Made by a program: the position numbers and the translations under genes. From the NCBI GenBank assembly GCA_038659295.1, contig JASNGC010000002.1:558001-622000 (forward strand): 64,000 nucleotides of DNA, written 5' to 3'. This DNA is from Enterocytospora artemiae. Lineage: Eukaryota; Microsporidia. The notes under the pieces were generated by a model. It was not told the origin of the DNA and did not search any database. It saw nothing but the letters and a program-made list of their open reading frames with translations. Of the stretch, positions 24,242-44,199 are shown piece by piece; position 1 is the stretch's first letter; each line of letters opens with the position of its first letter.

Positions 24242-26160
24242 CTAATCCATGTCAAAATTCTATACAAATCATAAGGAAATGTAGAAGAGATTTCAAGCAT
24301 CATATTTCTTATCTACAAATAATTTAATACTATATATGATTTGTTATCCTTCACGATGCTACAGATAATTCTGCTCATCTTAACTCATACCTGTTTGATA
24401 TTTTAAAATGATTATAATTCTGAAATACCATATTTAAATCGCCTTAATATAATCTGAAATTAATAGAAATTTATACATATATGATACAAAGAGACTATTA
24501 AATACTTGACCTGTCTAGTTAAATAACTATATGAGTTGTTTTGTCGAAACATTCTTATACAGTATAAACAGTCTGTCTTTATCATTATAGTATTAATTTG
24601 TCATATGGGATATTTATGATTAATCCAAAATTTACAGATGATTTTTCAATTCGTTGATTTCATACTTAAAGTATTGGTATTCAGAAACCTGAACAATTAA
24701 GAGAAACAACATTCAATATTCCAGTATTTTATACTTTGATGAAAACTTTCTACAATCTGCAAAATCAATATCCGAATGTGTGATTTCGATTATTTAAAAT
24801 GAAAACAACCAACCCACAAATATGTTGGCAACATATATGATTGCGGTGTGTAATTTTTATCTTGTGGAAAATAGTGATTTAACTATGTATGTACCTAATC
24901 GTGCAACAATACCTGTTGATGATGATACATATAAAACCTATGACTATATCGATAATGATAACAAAATTCCATCCAGTTATATGCTCGTTTGTCCAGATGA
25001 ATATGTACCAAAAATCGTGTCGAATAATGATTATTGAATCGGGATTTATCTGGATGCTCGAGTAAAGAATCAATTAGTTGTGCATATGATTTCAATACAG
25101 AAGGGATAATTTAACCTGGATGTCGAGCAGTTTGTAAGAATTGGCTTTATCCAAAGATTGTTCCAATATCTGATGATACCCATATTCAAAGTGGGAAGAT
25201 TCTGCCTGGATACGAGTTTGCTTGCGGAGATGGATCTAAACTACAAATTAGAGCGGCAGATGATTATTCACCAATAGGTGTTCCAATTCCAACGCCATCA
25301 TTAGATCAGGATTTTTCTAATGATAAGACTTATAATACAAAGAGTCTTCCGAGTTTAAATGAAGATTCAATTTATTGTGCATATGTTTTCAAAACGGAAG
25401 GAATAATTTCACCCGAATGCCTGCCAGCCTGTAAGGATGGCAATTCCCCTATAGCCATTCCAATACTTGATAGAAGTTATCATGAAGATACAATCTTAAA
25501 AAGCAAACTAATCAGAGCTAGTTTTGATGCTAAATCTGGACATAGATATCTTTCACTTATCTCGGATATGTCGATGATGCTATTACTAAGGGAATTGACA
25601 CCATGCCAGTGGATACTTCTCACGATTATTGTTTTCACAGTTATACTTTTAATTATCCACTACTGCCCTGACTTCATTTCCCAAGAACTATTTATGATTT
25701 AGCTTTGGTTCTTAGTATATGGTGGGGATGTGTGTTATCTGTCAATTTCATGATTCTAACATAATTTTTGTAAATTCCGTTCTATCCCATCCTAGTGGCT
25801 TATAATAACATTATTGACTCAATAATAAATAATTATTAATTTTATCTAAAAAATTTCAGTGAGATTTAAGTCAAATCCTTACAACCCGATTACAAACAAT
25901 TTATCTTCTCTATTGGCACAACTTGATATGTTACCTTCATAATGGTTATTATTTTTTAGTTATAATGTTGATCTATCAGTATATCCTAATCAATTCCATA
26001 AATACTTGTTAATATATTATCAAATACACTATTCTAACTTCTCTATGTTATTTAATCTGGTTCCTATGTATTTTTTGAATTTTACTGACTAATCACTACT
26101 ACATATAACATCCAATGGTTTTGTGATTCTACAATAATATATGATAAACACATATAGTAG
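24242..26160 (+). repeat. Inverted duplication, arm A
   Basis: This segment pairs, in reverse complement, with 43077-44199. The core 24380-24998 is nearly identical to 43442-44026: I count four substitutions in 585 aligned bases plus one 34-bp gap. Outside the core, similarity continues at a visibly lower level (roughly three quarters identical by eye) on both sides: 24242-24330 against the 44 kb end, and about 25810-26160 against 43077-43350. The middle part, 24999 to about 25800, has no counterpart in the other arm. The arms are 16.9 kb apart. Confidence 0.9.
24822..25702 (+). pseudogene. Decayed surface-protein gene with repeat ectodomain
   Basis: The first frame (24822-25037, ATG preceded by CCC) gives a hydrophobic start (MLATYMIAVCNFYLV) and an Asp/Tyr-rich segment. 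After a frameshift near 25030 the coding character continues in another frame to the TAG at 25700-25702, interrupted by one TAA at 25112-25114. That frame holds two copies of a unit of roughly 90 residues, seen as SISCAYDFNTEGII and SIYCAYVFKTEGII followed by Cys pairs. It ends in a C-terminal membrane span (WILLTIIVFTVILLIIHYC). The TAA lies where the second unit has TCA, so it is a single-base nonsense change. The product was probably a secreted, membrane-anchored protein of unknown function. Confidence 0.8.
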
Positions 26161-26286
26161 TTCAATACCAAGTTGTTATGGTGAATTTATTTTCAGCAAA
26201 TTATGATGAATATTATTCAAAATAAAAGTGAAACCTTATCTATTATATTCCAAGATACTAAAAAGTTTTGAAAAATTTACTCCTAA
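25703..26286. other. Non-coding flank of arm A
   Basis: No gene is seen. From about 25810 the sequence is a diverged match, in inverted orientation, to 43077-43350. Confidence 0.6.
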
Positions 26287-27066
26287 ATGTATGCAAGGAT
26301 ACCTACACCCAACAAGATTCTTTGTTTGACTGCAATAGATTCTATTTTTTATTCTGGTGACAATCGTGGAAATTTATCAGAAATTGATCCTTCGAAAAAT
26401 CAAATGCGAACAGTAGATAAAGCCAATTTTCCAATTTCTGCTGTGTGTGTTGGCAAGAAAAAGTTTTGTGGGAATTGGAATGGTGATATATATTGCATTG
26501 AGACATCAGCCAAGGTTAATCTAGGGAGTGGAATAATCAAAGGACTAGTAATATTCAAGGAAAAACTTGTCGCCGGAATAGAGAAAAAGATTTACATTCT
26601 GAGCCAGGATCTAGAAGTGTTAGAACAATATGAAACCAAGCAAAAAGTTCAATGCATGTATAAAGTGGATGAGAAAAATGTCATAATTGGATGTAGCTTA
26701 GGATACTTGGGAACTTATGATGGGTCTTCTTATCACCTTCTTAGAAGATCTAAACATGAGCAAAACATATTGTCTATTGCATCAATAGATGGCAAAATTG
26801 TTACAGGTTCATGTGATGGAACAGTCAGGATAGAAGATGAAAAGATATATGAGGGTGATCAATGGGTTAGATCAGTTTGCTCTTGTGAATTATTCTCATC
26901 TGGAAATAATGTAATTAGAAATAATAAGATTCTCTTTTCACATAATGATCATGCCACTGCTATCAAAGAGAATGATAAGTATATTGTTTCTGTTGGACTT
27001 GATGGTTGCATAATAATCTATTCGAAGAGCGAAAATTACTCCGACGATAAGGTTGGATCAAACTAG
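26287..27066 (+). CDS. WD-repeat-like beta-propeller protein
   Basis: A 259-residue protein of short repeated beta-strand segments with G-D/N turns, such as YSGDNRGNLSEI, CGNWNGDIYCI, IGCSLGYLGTY, VTGSCDGTVRI and VSVGLDGCIIIYS. Canonical WD dipeptides are mostly lost. Five to seven blades can be drawn, spaced about 40 residues, which fits one small propeller with nothing else attached. I cannot name the family; reduced WDR55/Jip5 or a similar nucleolar protein are possibilities. CCTAA stands before the ATG, a weak form of the start signal. Confidence 0.75.
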   Translation: MYARIPTPNKILCLTAIDSIFYSGDNRGNLSEIDPSKNQMRTVDKANFPISAVCVGKKKFCGNWNGDIYCIETSAKVNLGSGIIKGLVIFKEKLVAGIEKKIYILSQDLEVLEQYETKQKVQCMYKVDEKNVIIGCSLGYLGTYDGSSYHLLRRSKHEQNILSIASIDGKIVTGSCDGTVRIEDEKIYEGDQWVRSVCSCELFSSGNNVIRNNKILFSHNDHATAIKENDKYIVSVGLDGCIIIYSKSENYSDDKVGSN

Positions 27067-27822
27067 TGGTTTGAAGAAAATATTGAATGAAAAGACACTG
27101 TTTATTCCCATAATATGACTTTTATTTGAATTTTAACTCAAATCTCTTTTTAAATACATTAACCTCTTAATAACACAGATGCACTGGTGTCTTAATTGGT
27201 AAGAATTTGATTCCTATCAATTTGTAACAAAAATGTTATTTTTTATGATCAGAGCCTTGTGAGTCTTTTGTATAGTCAAAAATCTAGCTTATGATCAATT
27301 AGTTAACAATATAGTATTGAGAAAATATTATACATCGTACATATTCAAGAGTATTGAATTGAAATCATGGTTACTATTATTCATTTGCTTGCCTAACAAA
27401 ATACTCTGAAGGATGATATGTTACATAATAAAGATATCCGAATAAAATTTAAAATAAAATGGAAAGCTTCCAATACCTTCATAGTGTCCAAAGTTTATAG
27501 ATTCATTTATTAACCTATCTCACGAGACTATTAAATTCTCATACGGATTATCGATATTTTAAATAATCTCATGAGACTTTAAGACACAGAGTACCGAAAA
27601 ATTATATAGTTTTGGGCAATCCGATTAAATTAAAGATTTATAAAGGAGGTTATATATTTTAGAGGTGATTGAGAACATATTATTACTATCTACACTAATT
27701 AAGATTTCTTCAAGACATTTAAATAGCCGTATGCTTTGAATTTGGAAACTTTCATACATAATCTAAAACAGAGATATTCAAGGCTGCAATTGTTAGCTTT
27801 CGTTTTTTCTGAAACCCAAAAC
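27067..27822. other. Gene-free AT-rich spacer
   Basis: About 750 bases without a credible gene. The open frame of the phosphatase extends to 27736 through a TTG, but this part lacks an ATG and precedes the CCC signal, so it is counted as leader. Confidence 0.5.
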
Positions 27823-28710
27823 ATGGAAAATATTTTTGAGAAGAATATTTTCTCAATAATGCTAGAAAAAATATTGAGGAAGAAAACCCTTTCAGAATAT
27901 GAAGTTAATATCATATGCTCTAAAGTAGTGGAAATATTGATTTGTGAGCCTAATATTCCATACGTTTTCAGTCCTATAGCAATTATTGGGGATATTCATG
28001 GCCAGTTTGATGATTTGGTTAAACTAATTGAAATAAAAGGAATACCTGATAAGTTTAAGTATATCTTCTTGGGAGATTATGTAGATCGGGGAGACAACTC
28101 AATGGGCTGCATCATGCTGCTCTTCATATACAAAATTTTATATCCAGATAGGATATATCTTATTAGAGGTAATCATGAACAAAGACAGATTAACAGAATA
28201 TATGGGTTCTATGACGAAATAGTACACATATACGGGATGGAACACTTGTGGAACACGATAAATGATGTTTTTGCATTTCTTAATATTGGGTGCATTGTGG
28301 ACAGAAAATACCTGTGCTTGCATGGAGGAATTTCTAATAGAATTTCAATTTCTAATCTCCAAAAAATTGATAGATTTCAACCTATCAAAGAGGGGGATTT
28401 GTTTAATGATGTTTTGTGGAGTGATCCCGGAGATACGGCTGAATGTGTACCTAATCAGAGGGGATGTGGAGTAATGTTTGGGCTGGATACTGCAAAGCAG
28501 TTCATTATGGAAAACAATATTGACTTGATTATTCGTTCACACCAGTGTGTTCAGAAAGGATACCAGTTTGATCTGGAAAGTCTTGTTCTAACTGTCTGGA
28601 GTGCTCCAAACTATATGAATCGGGGAATAAATCCTGGAACTGTATTAGTGTTAGAGCCGGATTTGCCAATAACAGTAGATAGCTTTAGATTTTACAGAAG
28701 ACCTCTATAA
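27823..28710 (+). CDS. PP2A-like Ser/Thr phosphatase catalytic subunit
   Basis: A 295-residue PPP-family phosphatase with all metal and catalytic motifs: GDIHGQ, GDYVDRG, RGNHE, LHGG, the later His in RSHQCVQKG, and SAPNY. The RQINRIYGFYDE segment places it in the PP2A/PP4/PP6 subgroup. The C-terminus ends YRRPL rather than the methylated DYFL of PP2A, so regulation by leucine methylation is still conceivable but PP2A proper is doubtful. The chosen ATG follows CCCAAAAC; a longer frame has only a TTG start. Confidence 0.92.
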   Translation: MENIFEKNIFSIMLEKILRKKTLSEYEVNIICSKVVEILICEPNIPYVFSPIAIIGDIHGQFDDLVKLIEIKGIPDKFKYIFLGDYVDRGDNSMGCIMLLFIYKILYPDRIYLIRGNHEQRQINRIYGFYDEIVHIYGMEHLWNTINDVFAFLNIGCIVDRKYLCLHGGISNRISISNLQKIDRFQPIKEGDLFNDVLWSDPGDTAECVPNQRGCGVMFGLDTAKQFIMENNIDLIIRSHQCVQKGYQFDLESLVLTVWSAPNYMNRGINPGTVLVLEPDLPITVDSFRFYRRPL

Positions 28711-28973
28711 AGAGATTCTGTAGGGTGTCTTTGCAATTAATTGAATGATTAAATTTGATGGTATTTTATTAGTTTCCTGGCCATTGGTGTTGAATTCATT
28801 TAACTGACTTAAATCTGTATCAGATGCATAAATCGACAAAATAAGACTATGAGAACTCTGTATATATGCCACTTTAAAATTTGGTAGTATGATACCCAGC
28901 AGTCATTATCAAGTTTGATTATTAAAATATTCTTGCTTTTTAAAAACAAATGTTTCATAATTTTGAATCCCAA

Positions 28974-30941
28974 ATGTCTGAGATTCTTGTTCCAAGAAAG
29001 GCTACAAAGTATAATTTTGCAGAGGAAGAGCTAATAATGAAAGAAGATTACTGCAACTGTCCAATATGGGTAAATTACAATGCATTAATTATTCTGGAAA
29101 CATTTCAAAAGAACTCTAGGCAAGCTATTGACTTCTTAATAGCCATATCGGAGCCAGTCTCCAGGCCAGAAAAAATACATGAATATCAAATCACAGCCTA
29201 CTCTCTGTATGCTGCAGCGTCTGTTGGGTTGACAACTGATCACATAATCAATACCCTTCAAAGATTCAGCAAAAATATCCTTCCAAAAGGTGTTCAGAAT
29301 TTCATAACAGATTGCACTCTTTCATACGGGAAATTAAAATTGATTAGAGCTCATATGAAATTCTTTATCGAAGCACAAAATGATGAAATATTCCTTATGG
29401 TATTGAATGATGAAATACTGTCCAAGTATTCGATTAATTCCGATCCCAAATTGCTTCTTATAGAGATTACAGACGTGGAAAATGCAAAAAAAAGATGCAT
29501 CGAGTTAGACTATCCACTGATCGAAGAATTTGATTTCATCAATGCAACTCAATTGTCTAAATTAAGCATGGATCTGAAACCAACGTGTCAAATTCGCTCA
29601 TATCAAGAAATTTGCCTGAACAAAATGTTTGGGAATGGCCGGGCAAGATCTGGAATCATAGTTTTACCTTGTGGATCTGGGAAAACTTTGGTGGGAATCA
29701 CAGCAATATCTACCATAAAGAAGTCTGGTTTAATATTGTGTACATCAGCGGTTTCTGTTGAGCAATGGAGACAGTCCATATTAAATTTTACGAATATCAA
29801 GCCTACCTCACTTGCTAGATTTACTTCAGATAAGAAGGAATGGTTCGAGGAGTCTGAATCCCAAAGAGGATCTGGAATATTAATAACTACTTATTCTATG
29901 CTTAGTTACAGTGGTAAGAGATCGTTTGAGGCCCAAAAAATAATGAATAATATAAGCCAACACGAGTGGGGAATTATGATTATGGATGAAGTTCACGTTG
30001 TACCAGCTCAAATGTTTCGAAAAACAGTTTCTACAGTATCCCATCATTGTAAGCTGGGTCTTACAGCTACCTTGGTCAGAGAAGATGATAAAATAGAAGA
30101 TTTGAATTTTTTAATTGGTCCAAAGTTGTATGAGGCTGATTGGCAAGACTTAAGTACTCAGGGTCATATTGCAAAGGTTGAAGGTGCGGAAGTCTGGTGC
30201 GGAATGACTTCCGAATTTTATAGAGAGTACTTAGTCCAAAATTCCGCTAAAAAAAGGGTATTGGCCATAATGAATCCTACAAAGATTCAGATATGCGAGT
30301 ATCTTATCGAAAAGCATGAAAAAAGAGGAGACAAAATTATCGTGTTTAGTGACTCAGTTTTAGCCTTAAAGGAATACGCAGTAAAAATGGGGAAACCATT
30401 CATTTATGGTCCGACTGGACAGACTGAACGAATGAGGATATTAAAGCAATTCCAAACAAATCGTAAAATAAATACCATCTTTCTTAGTAAGGTGGGAGAT
30501 ACCTCAATAGATTTGCCTGAAGCAACTTGTTTGATACAGATATCAAGTCATTTTGGAAGTAGAAGACAAGAAGCCCAGAGGCTTGGCAGAGTTTTGAGGG
30601 CAAAGAAGAGGAACGACCCTAATTTCAAGGTGTTCTTCTACTCTCTTGTAAGCAAAGATACGGATGAAATGTTCTACTCTGCCAAAAGACAACAATTTTT
30701 AATTGATCAAGGATATTCGTTTAACATAATTCCGGATATGCCGGAAGTTAATCAAAGGGAAAACAGGATTTATAGATCAAAATTGCAACAAAAGGAGTTG
30801 TTGGCGTCCATCCTGATGGCAACTGATAGAGATTTGCAAAGTGAGGAAAGTGAAGATGCAGACCGTACAGTAACCAGAAAAATAAGCGGATTCAGTGGTG
30901 CTGATGGGATGGCATATATGGAAAGACGAAAGCCTCATTGA
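28974..30941 (+). CDS. SSL2: TFIIH helicase/translocase XPB
   Basis: A DNA translocase of TFIIH needed for promoter opening and nucleotide excision repair. In the 655-residue protein the Walker A Lys is near residue 237 (PCGSGKT) and the DEVH box near 338. The RED motif ([23 protein letters not shown] region) follows, with helicase motifs V and VI at [13 protein letters not shown] and [20 protein letters not shown]. The N-terminal damage-recognition-type domain is shortened. The ATG behind CCCAA is chosen over one eight codons upstream. Confidence 0.96.
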
Positions 30942-31207
30942 ACTGTGGCAGTATGATGGCTTATTTAAGTGTTGAAAATATTTGGAAGAGGAAAAGTTGA
31001 TTAAAATTGTTCGGATGCAGTAAATCTACTCAGATTTTATTTTATACTTTTATGTAATCCAATAATATAAAAAACACAATCAAACCATGGAGCAATTATT
31101 GAGTTATTTATTTTTAGCTTAGTCACAGGCATTATTTTTGGTTTTAGAAATGACTCAATCAGATAATATCATCACTTGGAGACAGTTTCATAGCACCAAA
31201 TATTGAA

Positions 31208-33862
31208 CTATTCAAAACTAATATCAATGAGTGTTTCTCGGTTTAGTACTGAAAGCAAGCTAAAAATGCAAATATTTGCTTCAAGATTCATTAAATTAGT
31301 AGTTTCATCTATTGTAACAGTTATTGTAAGTATTTCCTTCTTGTCGAGTTCCTGAATGCGTACAACTATGCTTTTTGGAACAACTATTTCTGCAATATAA
31401 TTAGTATATACTGATTTTGGAATTGAGATATTGACACTGTACTCTGTTAAATTTATTGTGGTAAAGTTGTACTTGAGACTTTCATGCTTTCTATGCCCAT
31501 TCTTTATCAATACATACAGAACATCCTTTAGAACATTTACGACATACAGATCAAAACCCACACGATGATTAAGATTCATTGATTTGAAGCTTATATCCTT
31601 GATATTTTTACTTTTAAAAACTTTGTATAGTTTTGCCTTTACTTTTACTGGCTCTGGGAAGTATAGAAGCAGCTGATTATCAGCAAAAGTAATATTCAAT
31701 GAAATGAAATCAGAACCAACAATTCCCAAAACTTCCTTTGAACCATCTAAATCTTCAACCTCAACAGTAAATCCAGGGTGATTATAACAAATCTCATTCC
31801 GGATAATTACTTGGAATGGGCTGTTATCTGAATCGATTTGCCAGAAATCTTTTATGTTGTAGGGATGATTTTCAACATTGCAGTGAACTTCTAATGCATC
31901 ATGAAGGGGAACAAGAGATAGCTTTAGCCTGGCAAATTTTACGACAAGTTTTGGTCTATTTGTTTTGACTAGTCTGAAAAGTGAATAATCTTCATTCAAC
32001 TGATTCAGCAAATCTTGTGATTTCCGTTCGTAAAATGTACTGGATGGTTTTTGGAGCTGGCTCAAAGAGAATGGACTTAATTTACCAACGCAAATCTGTG
32101 TTTCTTGGCCAAATAATATATCGAATATATCTAAATTCGTATATTTTTTGGATTCCAATGCTGTTTTGGAGAAATGGACAACACTATCGAATCGTATATC
32201 TCCGAATAGCTTCTTATTTAGCATATCATCACACATCTTAAACAATATCGTGGTCTCCTTAAAGTCTGCACAAATTATTAATTTAGCACTTTTGACCAGA
32301 AAAGGAAAGTTTGGAAGTGAAATTGAAACAATATCTCCACTTCTCTCACCTAACAGTGGTGACATTATTGGTAAAAAGGGCATATGACTACGAATTTGAC
32401 ACTGCTCCGGAGAAGATAAATCCGATATAACCGTGTGCTTCAACATCAAATCTTTAGGAGGGAAAACATTCTTTTGAAAGATAAGATATGATTTATAATT
32501 ATAATAAAAATATCCTCTACTTGTAAAATCAGTTTGAATCTCCAATCCTTGAAAAAGTTCGTATGGATTTATTCGTCTGTGATTCAACTGATTGATTCGA
32601 GGAGTAGATATTAGCCCCTGATTTATGGAAAAGCTTATTAGAGGATGATTCTCCTTTAATATCTGAAGAAAGTGAGGTATACTTAACTTATCCAGTTCAA
32701 ATAATAACTTAAACTTGTATGGAGCTATGGTGATAATACCAACTTCCTTGAGATTGGTCCTAGCGATCAAATGTATCTTATCCTTTGGAAAGAATATATA
32801 AAGCATGGAGATCAAAAAGTTACAAATGGATTTCCGAGCAAAAAATATTTCGCCCAAAATTGTTTTATCCACTTTTAGAATATTAAAAAATATTTTAGGT
32901 TCTGTAGATGAGATGCTTTTTTCGGCCTTGAATTGTTGTCTACGAAAATTGATGTGATGGGAATTTGTATAACTCCAAGGAACTCCCAAAGAAGTCCCAA
33001 AAATTCCAACCAAAAATATTTCGATGTTTTTTTCACAAACCATCTTTATGAGTGGTTCGAGGAAGTCAGCATTATCTGCAGGAAGGGTGAGTGTTGCCAG
33101 GGTTACTCTTTCTTTACTTTGTTCGGAAAAACTAAAGCTCTTCAACAGAATTTTGGAAAAAATCCTTGGAGAAAAGATAAATTCTACATCATTCCTTACA
33201 TTTATAATGTATTTTTCAAAAATTGGAACAGCTTGCTGAAGCTTCCCTGCATCTAAAGAAATCGCTATTTCTTTCAAACCATCTTTCTCAATTTCATAGG
33301 TTTCAATTTGAATTCCAAAATTATTAATATATTTTATATAAGCCGAAAAGGTATCTCCTGGTTTTGATGATTGTGATTTCAAAAGGTTGATAGATTTTGA
33401 AAACCTTTTAAAGAAGAATAGAGGAATCCAAAAGAAACGGGTAGATATTGAAAATTCCCCCGTTACTCCAATTATGCCCATGGGAGATTTTAAGAATCTA
33501 TCGACATCTGCTGCTATTTTGATAACAGAGGAGATTGCACATCCATTTTTCAAACATATTTCATCTGTTTTGAAGGTCAGAGAGTCATTAATAACCAGAC
33601 TTACGTTGCTGGCTTTGATAAACACCGGTATACTACCATTGGTGATTTCAGCGTTAATCCTTATTTCTGTGGGATTATCCAAATCGAAATCTAAGTTAGT
33701 TATCTTAAAGTTGGCGTAACGAACATTATACACTGACCTGAGAATAAATGCTGCTCTAGCCAGAATTAAGCATGTAATAAAGAAAAAAAATGATGCAATT
33801 CTTTTTTTTCCATAGAATACATCGGATTCGCGTTGTGGAGATCTTTTCTTATAGATCAGCAT
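31208..33862 (-). CDS. Large single-anchor membrane protein, LEA2/DUF3712-like look
   Basis: An 884-residue protein. CCC is immediately before the chosen ATG; the frame runs 35 codons further upstream without it. A basic N-terminus (about 1-25) is followed by one strong membrane span (ASFFFFITCLILARAAFIL, about 27-45). All the rest looks beta-rich and extracytoplasmic, with Asn-Pro turns such as LDFDLDNPTEIRINAEITN soon after the span. This resembles the repeated LEA2-like/DUF3712 domains of fungal vacuolar membrane proteins such as yeast Tag1, but the match is by pattern only. Function unknown. It is divergent from the gene at 33941 with 78 bp between starts. Confidence 0.7.
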   Translation of the reverse strand: MLIYKKRSPQRESDVFYGKKRIASFFFFITCLILARAAFILRSVYNVRYANFKITNLDFDLDNPTEIRINAEITNGSIPVFIKASNVSLVINDSLTFKTDEICLKNGCAISSVIKIAADVDRFLKSPMGIIGVTGEFSISTRFFWIPLFFFKRFSKSINLLKSQSSKPGDTFSAYIKYINNFGIQIETYEIEKDGLKEIAISLDAGKLQQAVPIFEKYIINVRNDVEFIFSPRIFSKILLKSFSFSEQSKERVTLATLTLPADNADFLEPLIKMVCEKNIEIFLVGIFGTSLGVPWSYTNSHHINFRRQQFKAEKSISSTEPKIFFNILKVDKTILGEIFFARKSICNFLISMLYIFFPKDKIHLIARTNLKEVGIITIAPYKFKLLFELDKLSIPHFLQILKENHPLISFSINQGLISTPRINQLNHRRINPYELFQGLEIQTDFTSRGYFYYNYKSYLIFQKNVFPPKDLMLKHTVISDLSSPEQCQIRSHMPFLPIMSPLLGERSGDIVSISLPNFPFLVKSAKLIICADFKETTILFKMCDDMLNKKLFGDIRFDSVVHFSKTALESKKYTNLDIFDILFGQETQICVGKLSPFSLSQLQKPSSTFYERKSQDLLNQLNEDYSLFRLVKTNRPKLVVKFARLKLSLVPLHDALEVHCNVENHPYNIKDFWQIDSDNSPFQVIIRNEICYNHPGFTVEVEDLDGSKEVLGIVGSDFISLNITFADNQLLLYFPEPVKVKAKLYKVFKSKNIKDISFKSMNLNHRVGFDLYVVNVLKDVLYVLIKNGHRKHESLKYNFTTINLTEYSVNISIPKSVYTNYIAEIVVPKSIVVRIQELDKKEILTITVTIDETTNLMNLEANICIFSLLSVLNRETLIDISFE

Positions 33863-33940
33863 GGGCAAACATATTTTGCATTGTAAAATAAGAGAAAATA
33901 AATTTTTTAAGTTAAAATTTATTAAACTTTTCAGCCCAAA

Positions 33941-34300
33941 ATGGAAGAAAAAAAATCTGGTAAGCACGATTCAAGAAAGCAGAACGGAAATCCTATCTGT
34001 GCACTGGGTGTTCATAATAGATCGAAGAACTCGCTATTGGATGAAGATGTCGAATTTGAGACCACATTGCTCAATATTCCCATTACAAGTGAGGACAATG
34101 CAGAAGTCATAAAATATATTAACTTACGATTTAAAGAAAAAACTTTTGACAACTACAGATTTGAAGAAATTGTCGAGAAAATAGAGGAGGAAACATATGA
34201 TACTTCTTGCTGTGAGAACGGAAAGGGATTAATCAAGCTCTATGAAGAAATTGATGAAGAATTTCGGAAGCTAGTTGATCATGGGAAAAGTGGACTTTAA
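33941..34300 (+). CDS. Hypothetical acidic helical protein
   Basis: A 119-residue protein with CCCAAA before its ATG. The N-terminal 30 residues are basic and Ser/Asn-rich; the rest is strongly acidic and helical (FEEIVEKIEEETY, YEEIDEEFRKL) with one CC pair near residue 90. No family is recognised. It shares a 78-bp intergenic region with the large membrane protein gene on the other strand. Confidence 0.6.
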   Translation: MEEKKSGKHDSRKQNGNPICALGVHNRSKNSLLDEDVEFETTLLNIPITSEDNAEVIKYINLRFKEKTFDNYRFEEIVEKIEEETYDTSCCENGKGLIKLYEEIDEEFRKLVDHGKSGL

Positions 34301-34798
34301 GAGAAATTTGGCCATATTCAACAAGCTGGCTGCGTAGGCGATTGATTTATCTATTGGCTTTGAATGCGTTCACTAATTCTTGGTGCTTATGAGTGAATTA
34401 ATTTCATATTACTTCTCAAAATGCTATTTCCTATACTAGTAAATTTTTAATAGAACTTGATTCAAACGCTTAATTTCCAATGTATTAAATAGATATTGTA
34501 CAGAGAAACAATTCGGCTTTATTCGTGCTTTCATTAAAACTAAGAAAGATTGTGAATATTTTGTGTATTGCCCAAAATCTACGAATATCAGTTATTTGAA
34601 TTAAAAGCTTGCAAATCAAGTCTATTTCTAGTCAATTCTGATATAACAATTATATTGGACGGTGTCTGTTTAATGGGATATTTTATAACTATTCAAACAT
34701 TATTCGATAATTTTAAATATACCCTACAAATTTTTTAATTAATATTATAACGTATAAGATTGACTCCTATATATAACCTCTGAAGCATTTAAATACAT
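34301..34798. other. Gene-free AT-rich spacer
   Basis: About 500 bases between convergent genes. No open frame, RNA gene or repeat is seen. Confidence 0.6.
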
Positions 34799-35119
34799 TT
34801 ATTTAATTGATCTATAAATCTTTGAACCAGAAAAAAGAGAAGGCTCAATCTCAATTAGGTTATTTTCAATATCATTAAATAAACATCGAAGAGCATCATC
34901 ATCACTTTTGGATACAAAGTCTGAGGAATGGTCGTGAAAATCTTTGAGTCCAACGATAGTGTCAACAAAATCACTATGGTGATTTTGGATGTCCTCCGAG
35001 ATATCCTCATATTGTGTTGGCTTTAAATCCAGGACACATGTGTCTTGCTCAGTAAAATGCGCCTGAGTATGACAATTTTCGCATCCCTTGCCACTATAAT
35101 GCATCGATATTATCTTCAT
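34799..35119 (-). CDS. Hypothetical small acidic protein
   Basis: A 106-residue protein. The ATG follows TCCT, a weak form of the local start signal; the frame also extends 14 codons upstream from a TTG. Near the N-terminus is a Cys/His cluster (GKGCENCHTQAH) that could bind a metal. The rest is acidic with several His. No family is recognised. Confidence 0.45.
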   Translation of the reverse strand: MKIISMHYSGKGCENCHTQAHFTEQDTCVLDLKPTQYEDISEDIQNHHSDFVDTIVGLKDFHDHSSDFVSKSDDDALRCLFNDIENNLIEIEPSLFSGSKIYRSIK

Positions 35120-35296
35120 AGGAGTAAATAAAAAAATGATTTTTAAGTAGATTCCCGCCAAATAATAGTTTTATTGGCCAATTTTGAATAAGCCAATAAA
35201 AAGTATAGGAGGAAAAATAATCAAATTAGTTAATGAATTAGAACATCAATTTCCCCAAAATAGAAGATATCAATTTCAAAAAGTCTGCAAAAAACA

Positions 35297-35370
35297 TACC
35301 CGACGTGGGATTCGAACCCACAACCCTCAGATTAAGAGTCTGATGCTCTAACCGATTGAGCCAGCCAGGC
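35297..35370 (-). tRNA. tRNA-Lys (CTT anticodon)
   Basis: A 74-nt cloverleaf on the minus strand. The acceptor arm pairs over seven positions with several G-U pairs. The D arm is GCTC/GAGC and the anticodon stem TCAGA/TCTGA encloses loop CTCTTAA. The T arm GTGGG/CCCAC encloses TTCGAAT, and the discriminator base is A. No intron and no encoded CCA. A run of six T follows and serves as Pol III terminator. Confidence 0.95.
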
Positions 35371-35600
35371 TTAGCACCACAAAGTAATTGGGTAACATGT
35401 GAAAAAATCGTGGTCAAAAATTAACTAATACAAAACAAAGACTAATCTAGACAATATTATATTAACAAGTTTATTTCACTTAATATGTCATTACCATCCA
35501 CCATAATAAATTTTACTAAAATTACTCAATACTAATATCTTTCGCAATTCCATGCGGCTGTAAATAAACTCTGGGAAACTAACTTGTTATAAAAAATTAC

Positions 35601-35840
35601 TTATTCGAATAAGTTTTCATAGAAAGGTGCCTCTGTTTCTTTCAAAGCATTCCTTATATCATCATTGATAACTATTTTCCTTTTGTGACTTTTACAATAT
35701 ACATCTGCCCTCTCCAAAAGATATAGCAAATACTCTTCTGTCTTTTCTGCAATATATTCTCTTAATTCACTGCATATATTTAATTTTTCTAAATCGGAGA
35801 TTAGGTTTATATTCTTAAGAATCCCATTACAAACTACCAT
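35601..35840 (-). CDS. TAF6: TAF6-like histone-fold protein
   Basis: A 79-residue protein that is little more than one histone fold: a first helix and loop (LEKLNICSELREYIAE), a long central helix (EYLLYLLERADVYCKSHKR), loop 2 with KIVINDDIRNAL, and a short end APFYENLF. The order and the R-K-x-x-x-x-x-D-D-I-x-x-A-L pattern match the TAF6 histone fold of TFIID, which pairs with TAF9. The HEAT repeats of full TAF6 are absent. The alternative is another histone-fold factor such as a CENP-S-type protein. CCC lies 11 nt before the ATG. Confidence 0.62.
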   Translation of the reverse strand: MVVCNGILKNINLISDLEKLNICSELREYIAEKTEEYLLYLLERADVYCKSHKRKIVINDDIRNALKETEAPFYENLFE

Positions 35841-36008
35841 GAAATGTTAGGGTCAATTATATTCTTTTTAACAAACTTTTGTTATACTTAGCTAGTTACC
35901 CTTAAACCAAATACCTGTTGTTGATAATAGAAGTAGAAATGACCTCCATAACTCTCATATTCCACAGAGTTGTTTTAGTATCTTCCCAAAATTTTTAATT
36001 TTGCCCCA

Positions 36009-36701
36009 ATGACTTCAAATATTTTTACTAAGAGACTTGCCATTATAGCCATCGATTTTGAAGTTATCCCAATTTCTCGAATATACAAGATATTCGAGAC
36101 CATTCTTGGGAAAGCATTGCCACATGTGCGACAGTATGTCAAGGACGATAAAATTTTTGCAGTTGCTGAATTTAGTACGATCGAAGATGCCAAGTTCATC
36201 TATGATTCCTGTGATGATTCTACTATTGATAATACAAAAGAACAATTTAACTTAAGCTTTGTACCAGACTCGTTTGAGCTTCCAGATCATGTGGACGAAT
36301 CCATTTCCAGCAAAGAATATTTTCATAAAAAATCAATCCATAAGTCTGAAATAGATTACGAAAATATGATCGAAGCTTCAGATTGTGAAAGTCTAGAGGA
36401 ATCATCTTGCGATAAAAATGGGGAGAGTGTAGATACTGAAGATAAGTCTAATTTTAAAGAAAAGTCACCCAAGGACATGAAAGGAGGGAGGTTGGCAAAG
36501 GCCATAGAGAATGAAGGAATTTTAAATGAAGCAGTTGGATTTAAGCCAAATGTTATTGATGATCCCCGATTTTCCAATATATTTACCTCTAGTGAATTTG
36601 GATTAGATGCATCAAATCCCAAGTTCAAGAATCAGAAGTGCTCATTTCAAATTGTAGAGGAAAAACGAAAACGTCATGCCCTGGAAGATAGATCTAAATA
36701 G
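36009..36701 (+). CDS. ESF1: Pre-rRNA processing protein Esf1, reduced
   Basis: A nucleolar factor for early 18S rRNA processing. The 230-residue protein starts with the Esf1 RRM-like segment (KRLAIIAIDFEVIPISRIYKIF) and has the later FAVAEFSTIEDAKFIYDSCD and FVPDSFELP. After an acidic low-complexity middle it ends with the NUC153 motif: DDPRFSNIFTSSEFGLDASN plus PKFKNQK. Yeast Esf1 has 628 residues, so linkers and charged domains have been removed. CCCCA precedes the ATG. The combination of both end blocks makes the call good despite the size. Confidence 0.85.
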   Translation: MTSNIFTKRLAIIAIDFEVIPISRIYKIFETILGKALPHVRQYVKDDKIFAVAEFSTIEDAKFIYDSCDDSTIDNTKEQFNLSFVPDSFELPDHVDESISSKEYFHKKSIHKSEIDYENMIEASDCESLEESSCDKNGESVDTEDKSNFKEKSPKDMKGGRLAKAIENEGILNEAVGFKPNVIDDPRFSNIFTSSEFGLDASNPKFKNQKCSFQIVEEKRKRHALEDRSK

Positions 36702-36895
36702 ATAACTAAATTTGCATGCCTTTCATATCTGCTCTTGAAAATCTTGACAGACTTCGGTCGTAACAATCTATTCTTTTCTAGATTTATTTTGTACTTGAAT
36801 ATTCTTAATATCCTTAATCAACAACCTGCATTTTTCAAAAAATTTAACCAGCCATTTTAAAATAGTTATGGATTTGTAGAATATCAAATCCCAAA

Positions 36896-38065
36896 ATGCG
36901 TACTGAAAATTTTGGAGTAAAATTAGAAAACCAAAACCAAATCAATGAATTGTTTTCTGTTTTGAAACGAATTTTGGGTTTAACTAGGTCAGGTACGTTT
37001 TTTGGAAATCATCCAGTGGGCTTGAATGAAGAAAGAATGAATTTTTTATTGGAAAATGACTATTTTGTTTGTGAAAAAAGTGATGGAATTAGAGTAATGT
37101 TACTAACATACCAAACCCATGTATTCTTTTATGACAGGATGAATGTATTTTTTGAGCTGGATTATATCACCAATGAAAATGCCATTTACTTATTTGACGG
37201 AGAACTCTATGAAGAGGAGGGCAGGTTTGTGTATGCTATATTTGATACTCTTATTTATAACGAAAAGAACATGATGCCTTTAGACCTAACGAGAAGATTG
37301 GGGGTCGCAAATTTATTTGTGAAGAATATAGTATCAAAGCTATTTCTGAGGCAAAATAATAGTAAGTTTTATCCATTTTTTACGATAATGAAGTATATGA
37401 TTCGAAGTTATGGGTTTCCAGGAATTCTTGATGAAATTCCAAACTTAAAGCATAAAAATGACGGGCTGATTTTCACTCCTGTAAATTTACCATACGTACC
37501 ATTTGAGAGGTCGCAGATTTTGAAGTGGAAACCTCCTTACCTGAATACTGTTGATTTGACTATTTACAAAACCGATACTCCAGGGGTATACGATTTATGT
37601 TGTGATGTGGAAGAGAACCAGTTGAAGAAGTATTCATTAGGTTCTTTTGGTAAGAGGCAGATTCATTTTGGAACGTATATTGTGGGAATTGATATCAAAA
37701 GATGTAAAGAGTCTGAACTTGCCATAACCTATGCAGAGGAACAGTTTGGAGATGGCCATCCGAAAGATCCATCAAGTATAGTATCCGATCCGTTAGATGG
37801 GAAAATAGGTGAATTTACATTTAATAAAGAAATGTGGACTTGGGACATATCCACTTTATCTCTGGTAAAGGGTGGCTGGTCCCTATATAAAGTTAGAACA
37901 GATAAGGACAGCCCAAACAATATTAAAATTGTTATTGATTTGTGCAATACATTCCATGAAAACCTTGATCAATGGAAGTTGAAATCATACCATAAATTGA
38001 TGAGGGAACAATATAAGCTTCGAGAAGCAGATGCTAATCTAAAAGTTGTAAAAAGAAGAAAATAA
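36896..38065 (+). CDS. CEG1: mRNA-capping enzyme guanylyltransferase
   Basis: Transfers GMP from GTP to the 5' diphosphate of mRNA. The 389-residue protein has the covalent nucleotidyltransferase motifs: EKSDGIRVM with the GMP-accepting Lys at residue 61, FDGELYE (motif III), HKNDGLIFTP (IV), and ILKWKPP (V). The OB-fold region ends with WTWDISTLSLVKGGWSLYKVRTDK. As in fungi, no triphosphatase domain is fused. CCCAAA precedes the ATG. Confidence 0.95.
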   Translation: MRTENFGVKLENQNQINELFSVLKRILGLTRSGTFFGNHPVGLNEERMNFLLENDYFVCEKSDGIRVMLLTYQTHVFFYDRMNVFFELDYITNENAIYLFDGELYEEEGRFVYAIFDTLIYNEKNMMPLDLTRRLGVANLFVKNIVSKLFLRQNNSKFYPFFTIMKYMIRSYGFPGILDEIPNLKHKNDGLIFTPVNLPYVPFERSQILKWKPPYLNTVDLTIYKTDTPGVYDLCCDVEENQLKKYSLGSFGKRQIHFGTYIVGIDIKRCKESELAITYAEEQFGDGHPKDPSSIVSDPLDGKIGEFTFNKEMWTWDISTLSLVKGGWSLYKVRTDKDSPNNIKIVIDLCNTFHENLDQWKLKSYHKLMREQYKLREADANLKVVKRRK

Positions 38066-38555
38066 CTGTAACCTCACTGGATGGATTACATTGTTCGATG
38101 ACATTAAATTTTGGAGATAGAGCTATTATTATCTTTTTATAAGGATGTGCGGTTCTGCTATTCAGCCTCTAATGCATAATTCCTCATTGGACTTATCTGG
38201 AAAAGAACTTTAATAACTTAATTAATGGTCAAAATTGTAGTAAAGATTTTTCCTTTGAAGAAGTTCACAGTTTCACGTTCAGATTTTGAATTGATGGACA
38301 CGAATACTAGAGATATATTGAGTAAACTTAAAAAGAGGAGAGTGTGTATTGATATTACAAAACACTTACGGGCTTTTTAAGTTAAAATATTGATTGTATG
38401 GTTGTGAATAAATCTATATTTCTCAACACAGCAAGAGGTTTAATAAATATAATGATGCTTTTTTAATCTTTTATAGCGCTATACAATTTGTCCAAATTCT
38501 GATCACCTGCCCTTGGACCACTCATAGAAGTAACATAGCCTTTATATTCTGTACA
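38066..38555. other. Spacer with one possible tiny gene
   Basis: Apart from the 51-codon frame at 38225-38380 described separately, there is nothing with coding character. The stretch separates the convergent CEG1 and HIT genes. Confidence 0.5.
38225..38380 (+). CDS. Possible 51-residue basic protein
   Basis: A short open frame with an ATG start encodes a basic product (MVKIVVKIFPLKKF at the start, LKKRRVC near the end). It has an amphipathic look, and its codon use resembles real genes more than the surrounding DNA. No CCC signal is present and no family is recognised, so it may be chance. Confidence 0.25.
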   Translation: MVKIVVKIFPLKKFTVSRSDFELMDTNTRDILSKLKKRRVCIDITKHLRAF

Positions 38556-39371
38556 TTAGTCAGTTGTATCAACATTTCTTGGTGTAACCTCTGACTTTAT
38601 TACCGGAATGATCTTGGTATGTGCATAATCAATCTCACAACCTTCAAAAATCATCGCACAATCATCAACATCCATAGCTTGTTTAAGCAAGATATTAACA
38701 GTGTAGCTAGCTCCTAGAATTTTCAAATACTCATCATGTTTCAAACTAAATATATCACTCGATAGGTGTTTTCTAGGCACAAGCACTGTGAACCCTGGTG
38801 TGTTTGGAAATGGAGTTAAAAATGCAATATGCTCTTTGTCTTCCCACACTCGCCACTGTTCAGCTTGACCTGTCACAATTTTGGTAAATAAATTGTTGTC
38901 ATTATGGTCCCCATGGAAGTTAAAACTCTGCTCCTGTATTTGTAGTCTAGTTCTTACTTGATTCTGTATCAATTTAAGACTGTCATCGGTTGCCCTTGGT
39001 CCATTTTTTGAGGTACAATAGCCAGGGTATTTCTCATGAAATTCAAGATGTCCAGCCAAAATAGGCTTCCAATTGGCATCCAAACCGTGCAGTGGCATCA
39101 GTTTTATTTGTGCATGACTATCTGTTGGTATTGTAATCATGGCACACCTTTCGACTTGCAACTTTTCAGATAGTATCTTTGCCCACTGCTTAGCTACCAA
39201 AAACATTTTGTTATAATCTTCTATTGGTAATTGAAATACGCTTGTGCATTTATCTTTCTTTGTCTGTATTATAGTTGTACCTGGTATGAATGGACAACTA
39301 TCTAAGTAAACGGTATGATCTTGGTCATCTGACAATATCCACTTCGTACCTTGTGTGGCATTTAGTGTCAT
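38556..39371 (-). CDS. Tandem-duplicated HIT-like protein
   Basis: A 271-residue protein made of two HIT-like halves. Each ends in an H-rich strand followed by a Pro: SHAQIKLMPLHG in the first half (near residue 107) and DYAHTKIIPV in the second (near 255). HIT nucleotide hydrolases use H-x-H-x-H, with the middle His as nucleophile. Aligned on the Lys and Pro, the second half keeps that middle His while the first has Gln there, and neither half has the full triad. Both halves show the same VLVP/TIIQ and CAMI blocks, so they come from an internal duplication. CCCT precedes the ATG. Nucleotide binding is likely; activity is uncertain. Confidence 0.75.
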   Translation of the reverse strand: MTLNATQGTKWILSDDQDHTVYLDSCPFIPGTTIIQTKKDKCTSVFQLPIEDYNKMFLVAKQWAKILSEKLQVERCAMITIPTDSHAQIKLMPLHGLDANWKPILAGHLEFHEKYPGYCTSKNGPRATDDSLKLIQNQVRTRLQIQEQSFNFHGDHNDNNLFTKIVTGQAEQWRVWEDKEHIAFLTPFPNTPGFTVLVPRKHLSSDIFSLKHDEYLKILGASYTVNILLKQAMDVDDCAMIFEGCEIDYAHTKIIPVIKSEVTPRNVDTTD

Positions 39372-39818
39372 AGGGATTGATTCTAGGAAAATTCTACTAA
39401 AACAACTTTTTAAATTGTATAAATTATAGACTATTCAAAGTTAATAAAAAATTACATTTCAACCGGTTTAATCACAATGTAAATTATATATATTTTACAT
39501 TAGTATTCAATGATTTAGTTAGCTAAATAATATCTGTAGTTTAAAGCTCAAATACTTGTCCCTTGTGACGAGAATATTTTCAGGTTTTAAATATCCATGA
39601 ATGACTTTTATGAAGACGATGGACATCATAAACTAACTGATGTTCCAAATAGGAATATTGTTTTTTACATATAATTTTAATTAATTTTATAATGTTCAAT
39701 TACTATGGTGTATCTAATAAAGGGGAGAGAAGTGTCTTGGGATAAAGTGACGCATAGCACAACATGTTGAAAATTAAATAATCTAGAGCACGATATATTG
39801 AAAAAATTATTTGAACCC
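39372..39818. other. Gene-free spacer
   Basis: Between the divergent HIT and Nudix genes. The Nudix open frame begins 21 bp before 39819 at a TTG, but the CCC-ATG marks the likely start. Nothing else is seen. Confidence 0.5.
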
Positions 39819-40259
39819 ATGAGAAATGACACACTGGTTATATTGAGACGTGGGGATGAGTTTCTCTTTGCAAGGAAAGGTAGGAAGATAGGAGTTGGAC
39901 TCTGGAATGCATACGGAGGAAAGAAGGAGCCTGGTGAGACTATTCTTGAATGTGCAAAGAGAGAGCTTCTTGAGGAATCTGGCATATTGTGTGAGGAACT
40001 TGTTGATGTTGGGATGCTTATGGTCAAAATAGATAATGAAGATCTGTGCATACACTTATTTGTTGGGGAGAGGTGGGAAGGTGTCCCACAGGAAACTGAG
40101 GAGATGTTGAATCCTACATGGTTTAGTTTTGATGAATTACCATACTCTGAAATGTTTCCTAACACCAAGCACTGGTTCCCTTTCATCTTCAAGAGAAAGA
40201 GAATTATAGTAGATGAAGTAATGGGTGATATTAGGGTTAATGTTGTGGGATCATATTGA
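39819..40259 (+). CDS. Nudix hydrolase, MTH1-like
   Basis: A 146-residue Nudix protein. The Nudix box is perfect: G34, E40, R48, E49, E52, E53, G55. WNAYGGKKEPGE before it matches the MTH1/8-oxo-dGTPase subgroup (WNGFGGK-x-x-x-GE). WFSFDELPY and FPNTKHWFPFIF near the C-terminus correspond to MTH1's WFQLDQIPF and MWPDDSYWFP blocks. Likely role: removing oxidised purine nucleotides. CCC is directly before the ATG, seven codons inside a longer frame. Confidence 0.92.
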   Translation: MRNDTLVILRRGDEFLFARKGRKIGVGLWNAYGGKKEPGETILECAKRELLEESGILCEELVDVGMLMVKIDNEDLCIHLFVGERWEGVPQETEEMLNPTWFSFDELPYSEMFPNTKHWFPFIFKRKRIIVDEVMGDIRVNVVGSY

Positions 40260-40508
40260 ATGCATATCTATTGGTTGGGTTTATACTGTTTGCTGGTTTT
40301 ATACAAATCAAAAGTGAATAAAAGTAGTTCTTACAACCTAACTCGGTCATAGCATCCACGGACAAAACCTAACTTCTCGTTTCTTGAGTTGCATATTTTA
40401 AAGTGTGTATCTGAAATAAAGGGTATTCACGTAACACAAACCGGTTTTTGAAGTACATTTCACAAACTATAATACCTCACTTGATGTCAAATAATTTATT
40501 CAGCACGA

Positions 40509-42533
40509 CTATGTTGCAATAGAGACACACACTCCTCTGTCTTTGAGAAGATCTAATAATTCCCTAGTATCCTCATTCATTGATTCAAAGTCGCTACAAC
40601 AAATCTCAAATTTCTTCAAACTAGGAAGTTTTGCAACCGATTTAAGTATCATATTCCAATTAGAAATGTTAAATCTCATATTATCCATATCTAAATCTGT
40701 TAAATCCTCCAAAGATTCAAGTGCAGTTGCAAAATGTTGAATCACCTCTGATCTCACAACAATCCTTTCGTCCAACTCCTTACCTAATTGGTTCTCCGAC
40801 AGATTCAATGCCTTAATGGACTCATTATTTTTAATGATTTTTGTTATCATATCCAGATCATTTAGATGTAAATTATTTCCTCCTAGATTTATGGATGTCA
40901 CTTTCTTTGAACTTGTTATCCCATCTAAAATGTGTGAAAAGCCTGTTGATCCTGGATTACACCAATTAAGAGTTATAGTCTTCAATTCTGACATATGCCT
41001 CAACACCTCCTCGATTTCCTTGGTATGTTTGCAATTCAGATCACTAATTGAAATATCAAGTGATTCTATTCTAAAATTGTCATCAATAGGTTCTTCATCA
41101 CACAACTGGGTATCAGAGTGATATCCTTCAATCTTTACATCAGTTATTTTTTCATGCTTATGCATTATATTAAAGAACTTTGTAATACTTATCTTGTTCA
41201 TATAACTTTCCGCCAAGCCTAAACCTTTTAAATTGGGAAACCATTCCAAAATTTTCTCAGCTTCTTCTATAGATCTGCAACATGAATTATAGCCACACAA
41301 GCTTAGATTATTCTATCTTGTCCCAGGGCAGTATGATGAACCAATGACCTTTTTCATGTTCAGATTCTTCAGTATGACCTAGTAACAACTTGTTACTATC
41401 CATGATAGATAAAATATGTCTTGGAGCCAACCCATTGCTATCCAAGTAGAGCATCTTTAACTTCGGCATCTTTGGCAATAATTTTGAAAAAACTGATGCG
41501 GTTTCATTTCTATTCAATTCATTTGAAGAATAATCTAAACTTTCGATATTCAGCCCTGTTATTGATTCCACAAACATCCCAGTTCCCTTCAATCCAAGTT
41601 CATTATAACCAATATTTAGTTTTTTCAATGATTTCATTTTTCCTATAGCTCTGAACAGTCGTGGCCAGCAGGATGAATCACACCATCCAATACTATTGCC
41701 ATTGATGTCAAGAGACTCAAGGCTCTGACAACTCTCCAATACTTGAGTAAATAGATCCATCCTGACATTGTAATTATACAATGAAAGAAACCTCAACAAT
41801 TTAAGATGCCTTAAGGTCTTGACGCACTCCAACGACTCTGCAATACAATTTAAACTTGCTCCACTCAAATCTTCACTTACAGATAATTCCAAATGTTTCA
41901 ACTTCTTAACGTTCTTAAGTAATTCCACCAGAAACGACACATCTCTATCCTCATTAATTAGAATCTTCAATACTTCCAAAGTACTATAAGATACATATTC
42001 CAGTATTTCATCAATCGCATCACTATAATTATGTGGCACTGTTAGGTCAATTGAGTTAAGTTTGGATACCTCCTTCCCCCAATGCTCTTTCAAAGCATTA
42101 GATTGCAATTTTCATGCCTCCACAAACACATCAAATGTATTGTATCCTATGTATGGTGTGCTACTGGGTAAGAACATCTTCTGTGTAGCTGAATCTGTTA
42201 ATTCAACTGTATCTAGTAGTTGCTTTGTAATTTCATTTAGTGCTCCACGGATTCCTCGTCACTCTTTTTTTCAATCCTCTGTTCAAACAAGCATGTCAGT
42301 ACTTTTATTTTGTCCTTGTCACTACTAACACTTGACAAGAGCCCAATTGTCTCAAATGGCTCACAAGTAGTGTCCATCAGCACTTCATAAAAAAATGAAG
42401 TTACCTGATGTAGAAACAACAGACCACATAATAACTGCTGAGTATGCTTCATGGGCACTGGGGTTAATTCTTTGTATTGATATATTTTTATTTTCCATTT
42501 AAAAATTATCAAATAAACTATTTTGGACATCAT
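40509..42533 (-). pseudogene. Broken leucine-rich-repeat gene
   Basis: Three open segments on the minus strand continue one another. 42533-42237 gives a helical N-terminal part. Then, after a one-base frame change near 42240, coding continues to a TGA at 42112-42114, and in the same frame on to 41308, with LRR pattern (LESLDINGNSIGW, LKKLNIGYNELGL, LKMLYLDSNGL). After a second frame change near 41310, LRRs continue to 40509 (INLGGNNLHLNDL, LNLSENQLGKEL). Neither downstream segment has an ATG at its head. This is an LRR protein of about 670 residues broken at three places. Assembly or base-calling error could explain one of these, hardly all three. Function unknown. Confidence 0.8.
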
Positions 42534-43076
42534 ATGAAATGAGGTAATTTCATAATAAAATACAATTTTCTTCTACACTATTGATTGAATTAAACCAAGT
42601 CGATCAAAAACCAAGGAATCATCTATTCATCAATATGCAAGATTAATTCAATTGCATAATATTGTTAGATTTTTTGATAAGGTAAAATGAAATAATAACC
42701 ATACAAATAAGAACCTAATTGGCTAAAGATATTATTTAGAAAAAGATAAAAATTGAATTTATCGCCCAATTATTAAAATAATATACAATGAAAACAATAT
42801 TATTTCAAAGTGTTGTGTTTATGGAAGATTATTTGTGTCTGTCTCATATATGCCACCCAGGACACTTCTCTGTATGACTCGATGTAAAGAGTATTCCTCA
42901 AAATATTTGTTTAAACCATTTATTGTATTATTTTACAAATCTTAGTAAATAATTTGAATGTCTGTTAAGTATTTATATAAAACAAAGTAATTTTTAAAAC
43001 ATATGATAATATTCTTGAGGTAATCATTTTGTATAACCATTAACATTCATTATAGCAGCTCTATCTTAGAATAATA
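42534..43076. other. Gene-free AT-rich spacer
   Basis: Very AT-rich, without coding character or RNA gene. It may contain the old promoter of the LRR pseudogene. Confidence 0.5.
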
Positions 43077-44199
43077 CTATATGTATTCATCATATGTTGT
43101 TGTCGAATAACAATATCATTGGATGATATATGTAATGATAATTTATCAATAAAACTCAAGAAATACATAGGAGTTTGGGACAAATAGTGTGTAAATGTAG
43201 CAAATCACTACAGGGGAATATAGGCCATGGTAGTCTTTAATAGTTAGCTGGTTATATCGATGAAGAAAAATTTGTAGTTGAATTGTAAAAATTAATTTAT
43301 ACCCTATTGGAAAACTTTAGCCAGAAGTTGTAATAATTATTTATTATTAAATCAATAATATGGACGGAGGAATAGAATAGTAGAAGTAATGACAAGAATG
43401 AGAAGTATGGAGATAAAGGAGGATGTAGTTGATTTATACGAATCTGGACAAACGAGCATATAATCGGATGGGATTTTGTTATCATTATCGATATAGTCAT
43501 AGGTTTTATATGTATCATCATCAACAGGTATTGTTGCACGATTAGGTACATACATAGTTAAATCACTATTTTCCACAAGATAAAAATTACACACCGCAAT
43601 CATATATGTTGCCAACATATTTGTGGGTTGGTTGTTTTCATTTTAAATAATCGAAATCACACATTCGGATATTGATTTTGCAGATTGTAGAAAGTTTTCA
43701 TCAAAGTATAAAATACTGGAATATTGAATGTTGTTTCTCTTAATTGTTCAGGTTTCTGAATACCAATACTTTAAGTACGAAATCAACGAATTGAAAAATC
43801 ATCTGTAAATTTTGGATTAATCATAAATATCCCATATGACAAATTAATACTATAATGATAAAGACAGACTGTTTATACTGTATAAGAATGTTTCGACAAA
43901 ACAACTCATATAGTTATTTAACTAGACAGGTCAAGTATTTAATAGTCTCTTTGTATCATATATGTATAAATTTCTATTAATTTCAGAATTATAATCATTT
44001 TAAAATATCAAACAGGTATGAGTTAAAATTAGCACATTAGTAAAATTATTTATAGCATTTAAAAGATAATAAAGCATGTAGAATATATTCAATGAGAAGA
44101 CGTTTACATTTCATTAAATTATTTGTAGATTAAGAAATGTAATGATTGAAATATCTTCCGTCTTTCTTATGATTTGTGTAGAATTTTGGATGGTATTAG
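43077..44199 (-). repeat. Inverted duplication, arm B
   Basis: Reverse-complement partner of 24242-26160. The core 43442-44026 is almost identical to 24998-24380; the outer parts are diverged. Compared with arm A it lacks a 34-bp piece (next to a TGAAAT direct repeat in arm A) and about 0.8 kb covering the middle of the surface-protein gene. Confidence 0.9.
43352..43618 (-). CDS. Miniature signal-peptide plus membrane-anchor protein
   Basis: An intact 88-residue frame. Its first 59 residues are those of the decayed gene in arm A (one substitution, Ser to Asp). Then, instead of the repeat ectodomain, it goes almost directly into a C-terminal membrane span (SFISILLILVITSTILFL). The ATG has the same CCCACAAAT leader as arm A. 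It looks like an internal-deletion derivative that kept promoter, signal peptide and anchor. Whether it is expressed is not known. Confidence 0.5.
   Translation of the reverse strand: MLATYMIAVCNFYLVENSDLTMYVPNRATIPVDDDTYKTYDYIDNDNKIPSDYMLVCPDSYKSTTSSFISILLILVITSTILFLRPYY

Follow-up and report, generated by a model that had tools for sequence, protein, structure and literature searches.

Mosaic segmental duplication is described in the subtelomeres of the microsporidian Encephalitozoon cuniculi, where membrane-protein families occur together with pseudogenes and recombination sites lie inside genes (PMC4704409, in part). The same passages report an N-terminal mosaic segment of interD that reaches over the promoter and call inversion of the EXT repeat rare. 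A microsporidian is also said to be without such subtelomeric mosaics (PMC13174016, in part). Inverted duplications at the ends of an inverted block are known from Drosophila mojavensis, where those accompanying inversions 2h and 2q were explained by staggered single-strand breaks (PMC3355041, in part). Here we describe a locus of the microsporidian Enterocytospora artemiae that combines elements of both systems. The window, the whole stretch of 64,000 nucleotides that was analyzed (C2:558001-622000), belongs to a genome of 3.0 Mb in five contigs (C1-C5) and contains two inverted arms, A and B, which share a near-identical core. The sequence makes it probable that ectopic gene conversion acted among old paralogues and that a segment bearing arm B (segment S) was later duplicated inversely while a 51.8-kb block was inverted.

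Of 45 first-look candidates, five were scored with a microsporidian small-subunit (SSU) rRNA model and gave approximately 1179 bits each, which identifies the genome as microsporidian. All five places lie within 29 kb of a contig end, a position of the rDNA that is shared with E. cuniculi (PMC4704409, in part). The likeness to the EXT and inter families, which is one of description only, extends to mosaic segmental duplications of a membrane-protein family with copies near the ends of C1-C5. Unlike the E. cuniculi mosaics in that partial account, two of the islands lie in a chromosome interior and the 52-kb block between the copies is apparently inverted.

The original prediction had proposed inverted arms, and both are present (Table 1). 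They match at 24239-24998 (+) versus 44202-43442 (-) and again in an 82% block (26062-26159 versus 43172-43075), with a 29-bp block in between. Base-by-base alignment revealed uneven identity, rising from 81% in the flank (103/127 at 24252-24380) to 99.3% in the core (580/584 aligned bases). The four mismatches agree with the number of substitutions predicted, and B additionally has a 34-base gap. As predicted, the core covers sequence upstream of an ATG (at 24822 in arm A; 406/407 bases match) and the first 59 codons, which are common to A and B (174/177 coding bases). When the 28 mismatches were shuffled over 711 columns, a run of 585 columns with four or fewer mismatches arose in 0 of 20,000 trials. 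Of the identity steps predicted, only one is genuine: upstream of the core, identity changes abruptly within DNA that remains homologous, whereas at the downstream edge the homology between A and B simply ends. In arm A, an 8-base direct repeat (identified by eye) flanks the 34-base stretch, and one repeat copy is incomplete in a related copy on contig 3. Because this repeat bounds the stretch in A, the gap in B fits a deletion within A-type sequence.

The contig-3 copy served as an internal control for the prediction of gene conversion inside an older duplication. It emerged from a genome search for more copies of the core with a 760-bp query, which matched six places: A, B, a second B (C2:540014), the contig-3 copy (C3:24923-25679) and two places close to contig ends, on C1 and C4, where the match is short. 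There is an additional short match at C2:690101-690206. Such whole-genome counts, here and below, are lower bounds. Arm A is 91% identical to C3:23805-25679 over 1.9 kb. The similarity starts at 24239 and is 97.7% in the upstream patch, 98.5% in the core (605/614) and 98.8% in the following stretch (397/402), before falling to 92% and then 85%. Thus, identity stays at 97.7-98.8% from 24252 to 25400, with no step at the core. Arm B behaves differently against the same copy: 56-62% identity far upstream, 94-99% over 44655-44206, 83-89% over 44205-44028 and 97-99% in the core, with no clear homology past the core until a 72% stretch further down. The contig-3 copy is therefore a chimera, B-type upstream and A-type from the patch onward. 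Its divergence from the two arms is similar (4/296 for B at 44500-44206, or 12/430 including 44655-44500; 17/1145 for A at 24252-25400). At the variable core sites, A equals B at eight, A equals the contig-3 copy at four and B equals the contig-3 copy at none.

This abrupt rise in identity within older homologous paralogues, seen at the upstream edge, supports the proposal that patchwork ectopic conversion produced the core as one of its tracts. Most likely, A-type sequence was written over B, because A and the contig-3 copy show no comparable step and B steps against both. A crossover within the A and B cores was also considered as the source of an inversion and was rejected: the B-type upstream and A-type downstream parts of the contig-3 copy fit it, but the patch has the opposite pattern.

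Arm B lies inside S, the two copies of which are 51.8 kb apart and in opposite orientations, the left one outside the window. No third near-identical copy was present among 43 matches listed for the whole genome. In the 194 kb of C2 examined for repeat pairs (E 1e-8), the 29 pairs listed all involve S, A, DNA adjoining S or the end of C2. The two copies differ in what their junctions, J1 and J2, do to genes. At J1, only the left copy of S has the complete gene for F1 (489 aa, C2:537947-539416); the window copy is missing the first 225 codons. At J2, a gene coding for a HIT-domain protein (271 aa) is intact only in the window copy; the left copy is cut after 119 codons. Among the 120 relatives of the HIT protein listed of 445 (294-425 aa long), 82-100% of the query aligned. 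Paralogues cross both junctions. An F1-like copy on contig 3 continues over J1, which falls at residue 226 of a stretch (residues 168-279) that matches at 39% identity. Across J2, four matches at C2:680919-683926 and two at C3:27382-27689 are collinear with the window copy. At J2, the block at the C2 end has 40 bases where the window has 1169, the latter with most of the HIT gene.

A segment that was originally single-copy thus stands inverted at both block ends, with the old junctions kept in opposite copies (F1 on the left, HIT on the right). Since the left copy preserves the old form of J1, the window copy does so for J2 and paralogues cross both, the block C2:545203-597013 (Y-Z) has apparently been inverted, in a recent event, and the old order would have been left flank-S-Y. 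The idea that the arms could invert the 17 kb between them found no junction evidence; the inversion indicated here is the 51.8-kb one, and its 6.58-kb arms extend past arm B. If the block is turned back, the far break sits between two convergent genes (stops at C2:545392 and C2:603850). The rejoined far junction, searched against part of the sequence, gave one internal repeat and a 45-bp match of 80% beyond its own halves. Ten bases inside the block end, at the far breakpoint, the 45 bp at C2:545213-545257 resemble, at 80% identity, sequence close to the ends of C1, C2, C3 and C4. GC skew, considered within the window as a clue to the orientation of the block, was too noisy and was rejected.

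The arrangement resembles D. mojavensis 2h and 2q, in which a once single-copy segment is now inverted at both block ends, and 2q in particular, in which a gene in the duplicated segment is likewise incomplete in one copy (PMC3355041, in part). It differs in that the staggered-break model ends in non-homologous end joining, and Ku was not found here. A and B and the contig-3 copy would be old paralogues among which ectopic homologous recombination copies short tracts, the near-identical core being one such tract (A-type over B). Later, the 6.58-kb S, already bearing B, would have been duplicated inversely at both ends of the 51.8-kb block as the block was inverted. Conversion is most simply older than the duplication of S because both copies of S carry the converted core, unless one copy was later homogenized. 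The inversion could have been (i) a single event, by staggered breaks or template-switching repair, or (ii) a duplication whose inverted copies of S then recombined; staggered breaks with end joining, template switching, and duplication with recombination all leave the same structure. The Ku family was found in 0 of 1 genome, in a search whose control genomes were prokaryotic, so that sensitivity to eukaryotic Ku is not demonstrated. A Rad52 family member was found. Microsporidia have been reported to be without classical end joining (PMC6635534, in part). Together, these three observations favor homology-driven or replication-based repair, that is, template-switching replication or duplication with arm recombination, over staggered breaks with end joining.

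Several points weigh against this history. The A-to-B direction was read from 12 variable core sites in three copies, with no outgroup, and, as the contig-3 copy is chimeric, histories with more exchanges fit too. Collinearity across J2 is inexact: spacings differ, and three more matches at the C2 end have another arrangement. No microhomology was seen by eye at either new join, which gives no support to microhomology-mediated repair. Concerted evolution has been argued to be reduced for dispersed rDNA copies, which counsels caution against assuming frequent conversion (PMC3566094, in part). The core could instead be a constrained promoter and signal-peptide region whose flanks drifted with no conversion, and within it a 107-bp block of A does match the copies close to the C1, C4 and C2 ends at 79-83%, against 44-60% in the neighboring stretches. 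However, the flat profile of A against the contig-3 copy, with no drop outside the core, indicates that the core is not simply slower-evolving and largely refutes this explanation; both of those genes are disrupted, the distant members that were compared do not retain the remaining core, and the block is not conserved in F1 (60%, 56/93). Constraint in place of conversion is thus highly improbable. That S was copied inversely to a second site, with the block left in place, is also very unlikely. A near-identical inverted pair would be equally expected, but the source should then keep both old junctions, and these are divided between the left copy (J1) and the window copy (J2).

With a single mismatch in 6580 bases, the pair could also be an assembly artefact or a mixture of haplotypes in a polyploid, each genome having one copy of S, and polyploids with haplotype rearrangements are among the microsporidian genomes of PMC12558613 (in part). 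Yet each copy of S has its own unique flanks and truncates a different gene, and paralogous blocks back both ancestral junctions. C1 also carries another recent duplication, which is direct (2839 bp, eight mismatches), though in the same assembly. An artefact therefore seems quite unlikely. The near-identity of the 6.58-kb arms, together with homologous recombination as the likely main repair route, could reflect a working switch, by which the 52 kb would change orientation again and again, with both states present side by side. By the layout of the junctions, F1 and the HIT gene would stay intact either way, leaving no obvious output, and we judge this reading rather unlikely. In a broader and bolder version, which we hold to be speculative though slightly less doubtful, the S arms of this apparently Ku-less genome would be an active switch driven by homologous recombination. 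The 52 kb would flip within populations, flipping and conversion would keep the arms identical, and interior islands of subtelomeric-type genes would be recurrent engines of inversion.

Table 1. Features of the window in window positions, listed as feature, position, strand and remark.
Probable inverted block, window part	1..39013	.	Whole block C2:545203-597013; from junction analysis
Arm A	24239..26160	+	Solitary island; disrupted copy of the cysteine-rich membrane-protein family
Upstream patch	24239..24380	+	126/129 between A and the contig-3 copy (24252-24380); B diverged
Core in arm A	24381..24998	+	Probable donor type
107-bp upstream block	24644..24750	+	Promoter candidate, kept in copies close to contig ends
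Open reading frame (ORF) of arm A	24822..25037	+	71 codons, truncated
HIT-domain gene	38556..39371	-	Crossed by junction J2 (39014); complete in this copy
Segment S, window copy	39014..45593	-	6,580 bp; one mismatch to its inverted duplicate at C2:538623-545202
NUDIX-domain ORF in S	39798..40259	+	Pfam NUDIX, 4e-16
Two adjacent leucine-rich-repeat-like ORFs in S	40509..42108	-	Different frames; leucine-rich-repeat models below cut-offs
Arm B	43075..44202	-	Inverted match to arm A
ORF of arm B	43352..43618	-	88 codons; N-terminus shared, other C-terminal hydrophobic segment (residues 66-84)
Core in arm B	43442..44026	-	Probable recipient of conversion
Tract shared by B and the contig-3 copy	44206..44655	-	B 94-99% to the contig-3 copy; A without clear homologue here
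Truncated F1	44800..45498	-	5' end cut by junction J1 at 45593

The N-terminus of the core ORF matches that of F1, a cysteine-rich protein with C-terminal hydrophobic segments encoded in the left copy of S. F1, used as a query, gave 24 matches, several of which are fragments of a single gene; they lie near the ends of C1-C5 and, on C1 and C2, also in the interior. In arm A, as in the contig-3 copy, the gene is broken after 71 codons; past the stop of arm A, the family repeats go on in another frame. Pfam held no significant family for F1, the B ORF, truncated F1, the A ORF or the C1 copy (for which there was a non-significant match at 0.36). F1 and the C1 family member had no relative at E 0.001 among approximately 5.8 billion proteins. 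On these grounds, the family may differ from those of E. cuniculi. The proteins form a predicted lineage-specific, fast-changing and largely subtelomeric family of cysteine-rich membrane proteins. Identity is itself a mosaic among the copies on C1, C2 and C4, as it is from the C2 end to the C3 end. For example, the copies at the ends of C1 and C4 are identical over 500/500 bases from the ATG and fall to 42-74% beyond +700, where those of C1 and C2 are still 94-100% identical.

A putative N-terminal signal peptide is plausible by inspection, with moderate hydropathy peaks of 0.92 in A and B, 1.17 in F1 and 1.47 in the C1 copy. The 107-bp block is a possible promoter candidate. It is far better kept relative to the end copies of C1, C2 and C4 than is the adjoining coding sequence, F1 excepted. 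The original prediction had treated the core as an expression module (promoter plus signal peptide), but the notion of a selected unit is not supported: the genes of A and the contig-3 copy are disrupted, similarity downstream stops where homology does, tracts between other copies have different ends and the N-terminus is only moderately hydrophobic.

Arm A is flanked, by Pfam matches, by a Ras-family GTPase gene and a WD40-like gene (WD40 model just below cut-off). Segment S looks like a subtelomeric-type block in a chromosome interior because blocks close to the C2 and C3 ends match parts of it at 76-78% identity. Its leucine-rich-repeat-like ORFs, probably one broken gene, are 76% identical to C2:680919-682760. 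This gene looks decayed, with at least two frames and a copy near the end of C2. Among the 120 listed relatives of the HIT protein, the three closest are unnamed proteins from short contigs (55-60% identity) and the named ones are animal proteins (40-51%). The HIT gene may possibly have been acquired from an animal host and inserted into the subtelomeric-type block.

The duplication in the interior of C1 joins 438000-440838 to 483907-486745, 45.9 kb apart, and holds an ORF resembling the C-terminal part of F1. A large tandem duplication at this site was rejected, as 10 of 10 probe pairs outside the copy fail to match and the copy spans only 2839 bp.

Both processes are already known, and this example of them is unusually clear. 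In a limited literature comparison rather than a full survey, their combination at base resolution in the interior of a microsporidian chromosome is unusual. The locus shares tolerance of segmental duplication and a high rearrangement rate with the genomes of PMC12558613, which, in the part concerned, works at genome scale and resolves no inversion breakpoint at base level. That study also considers microsporidian gene order to be rearranged too fast for confident reconstruction of ancestral linkage groups (PMC12558613, in part). Here, an apparent inversion is resolved to the base, with old and new junctions identifiable, in a genome where no Ku gene was detected, and it is tied to islands of subtelomeric-type membrane-protein genes. 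A possible role of such islands in driving inversions, and of conversion tracts in reshuffling the ends of these proteins, can now be tested.

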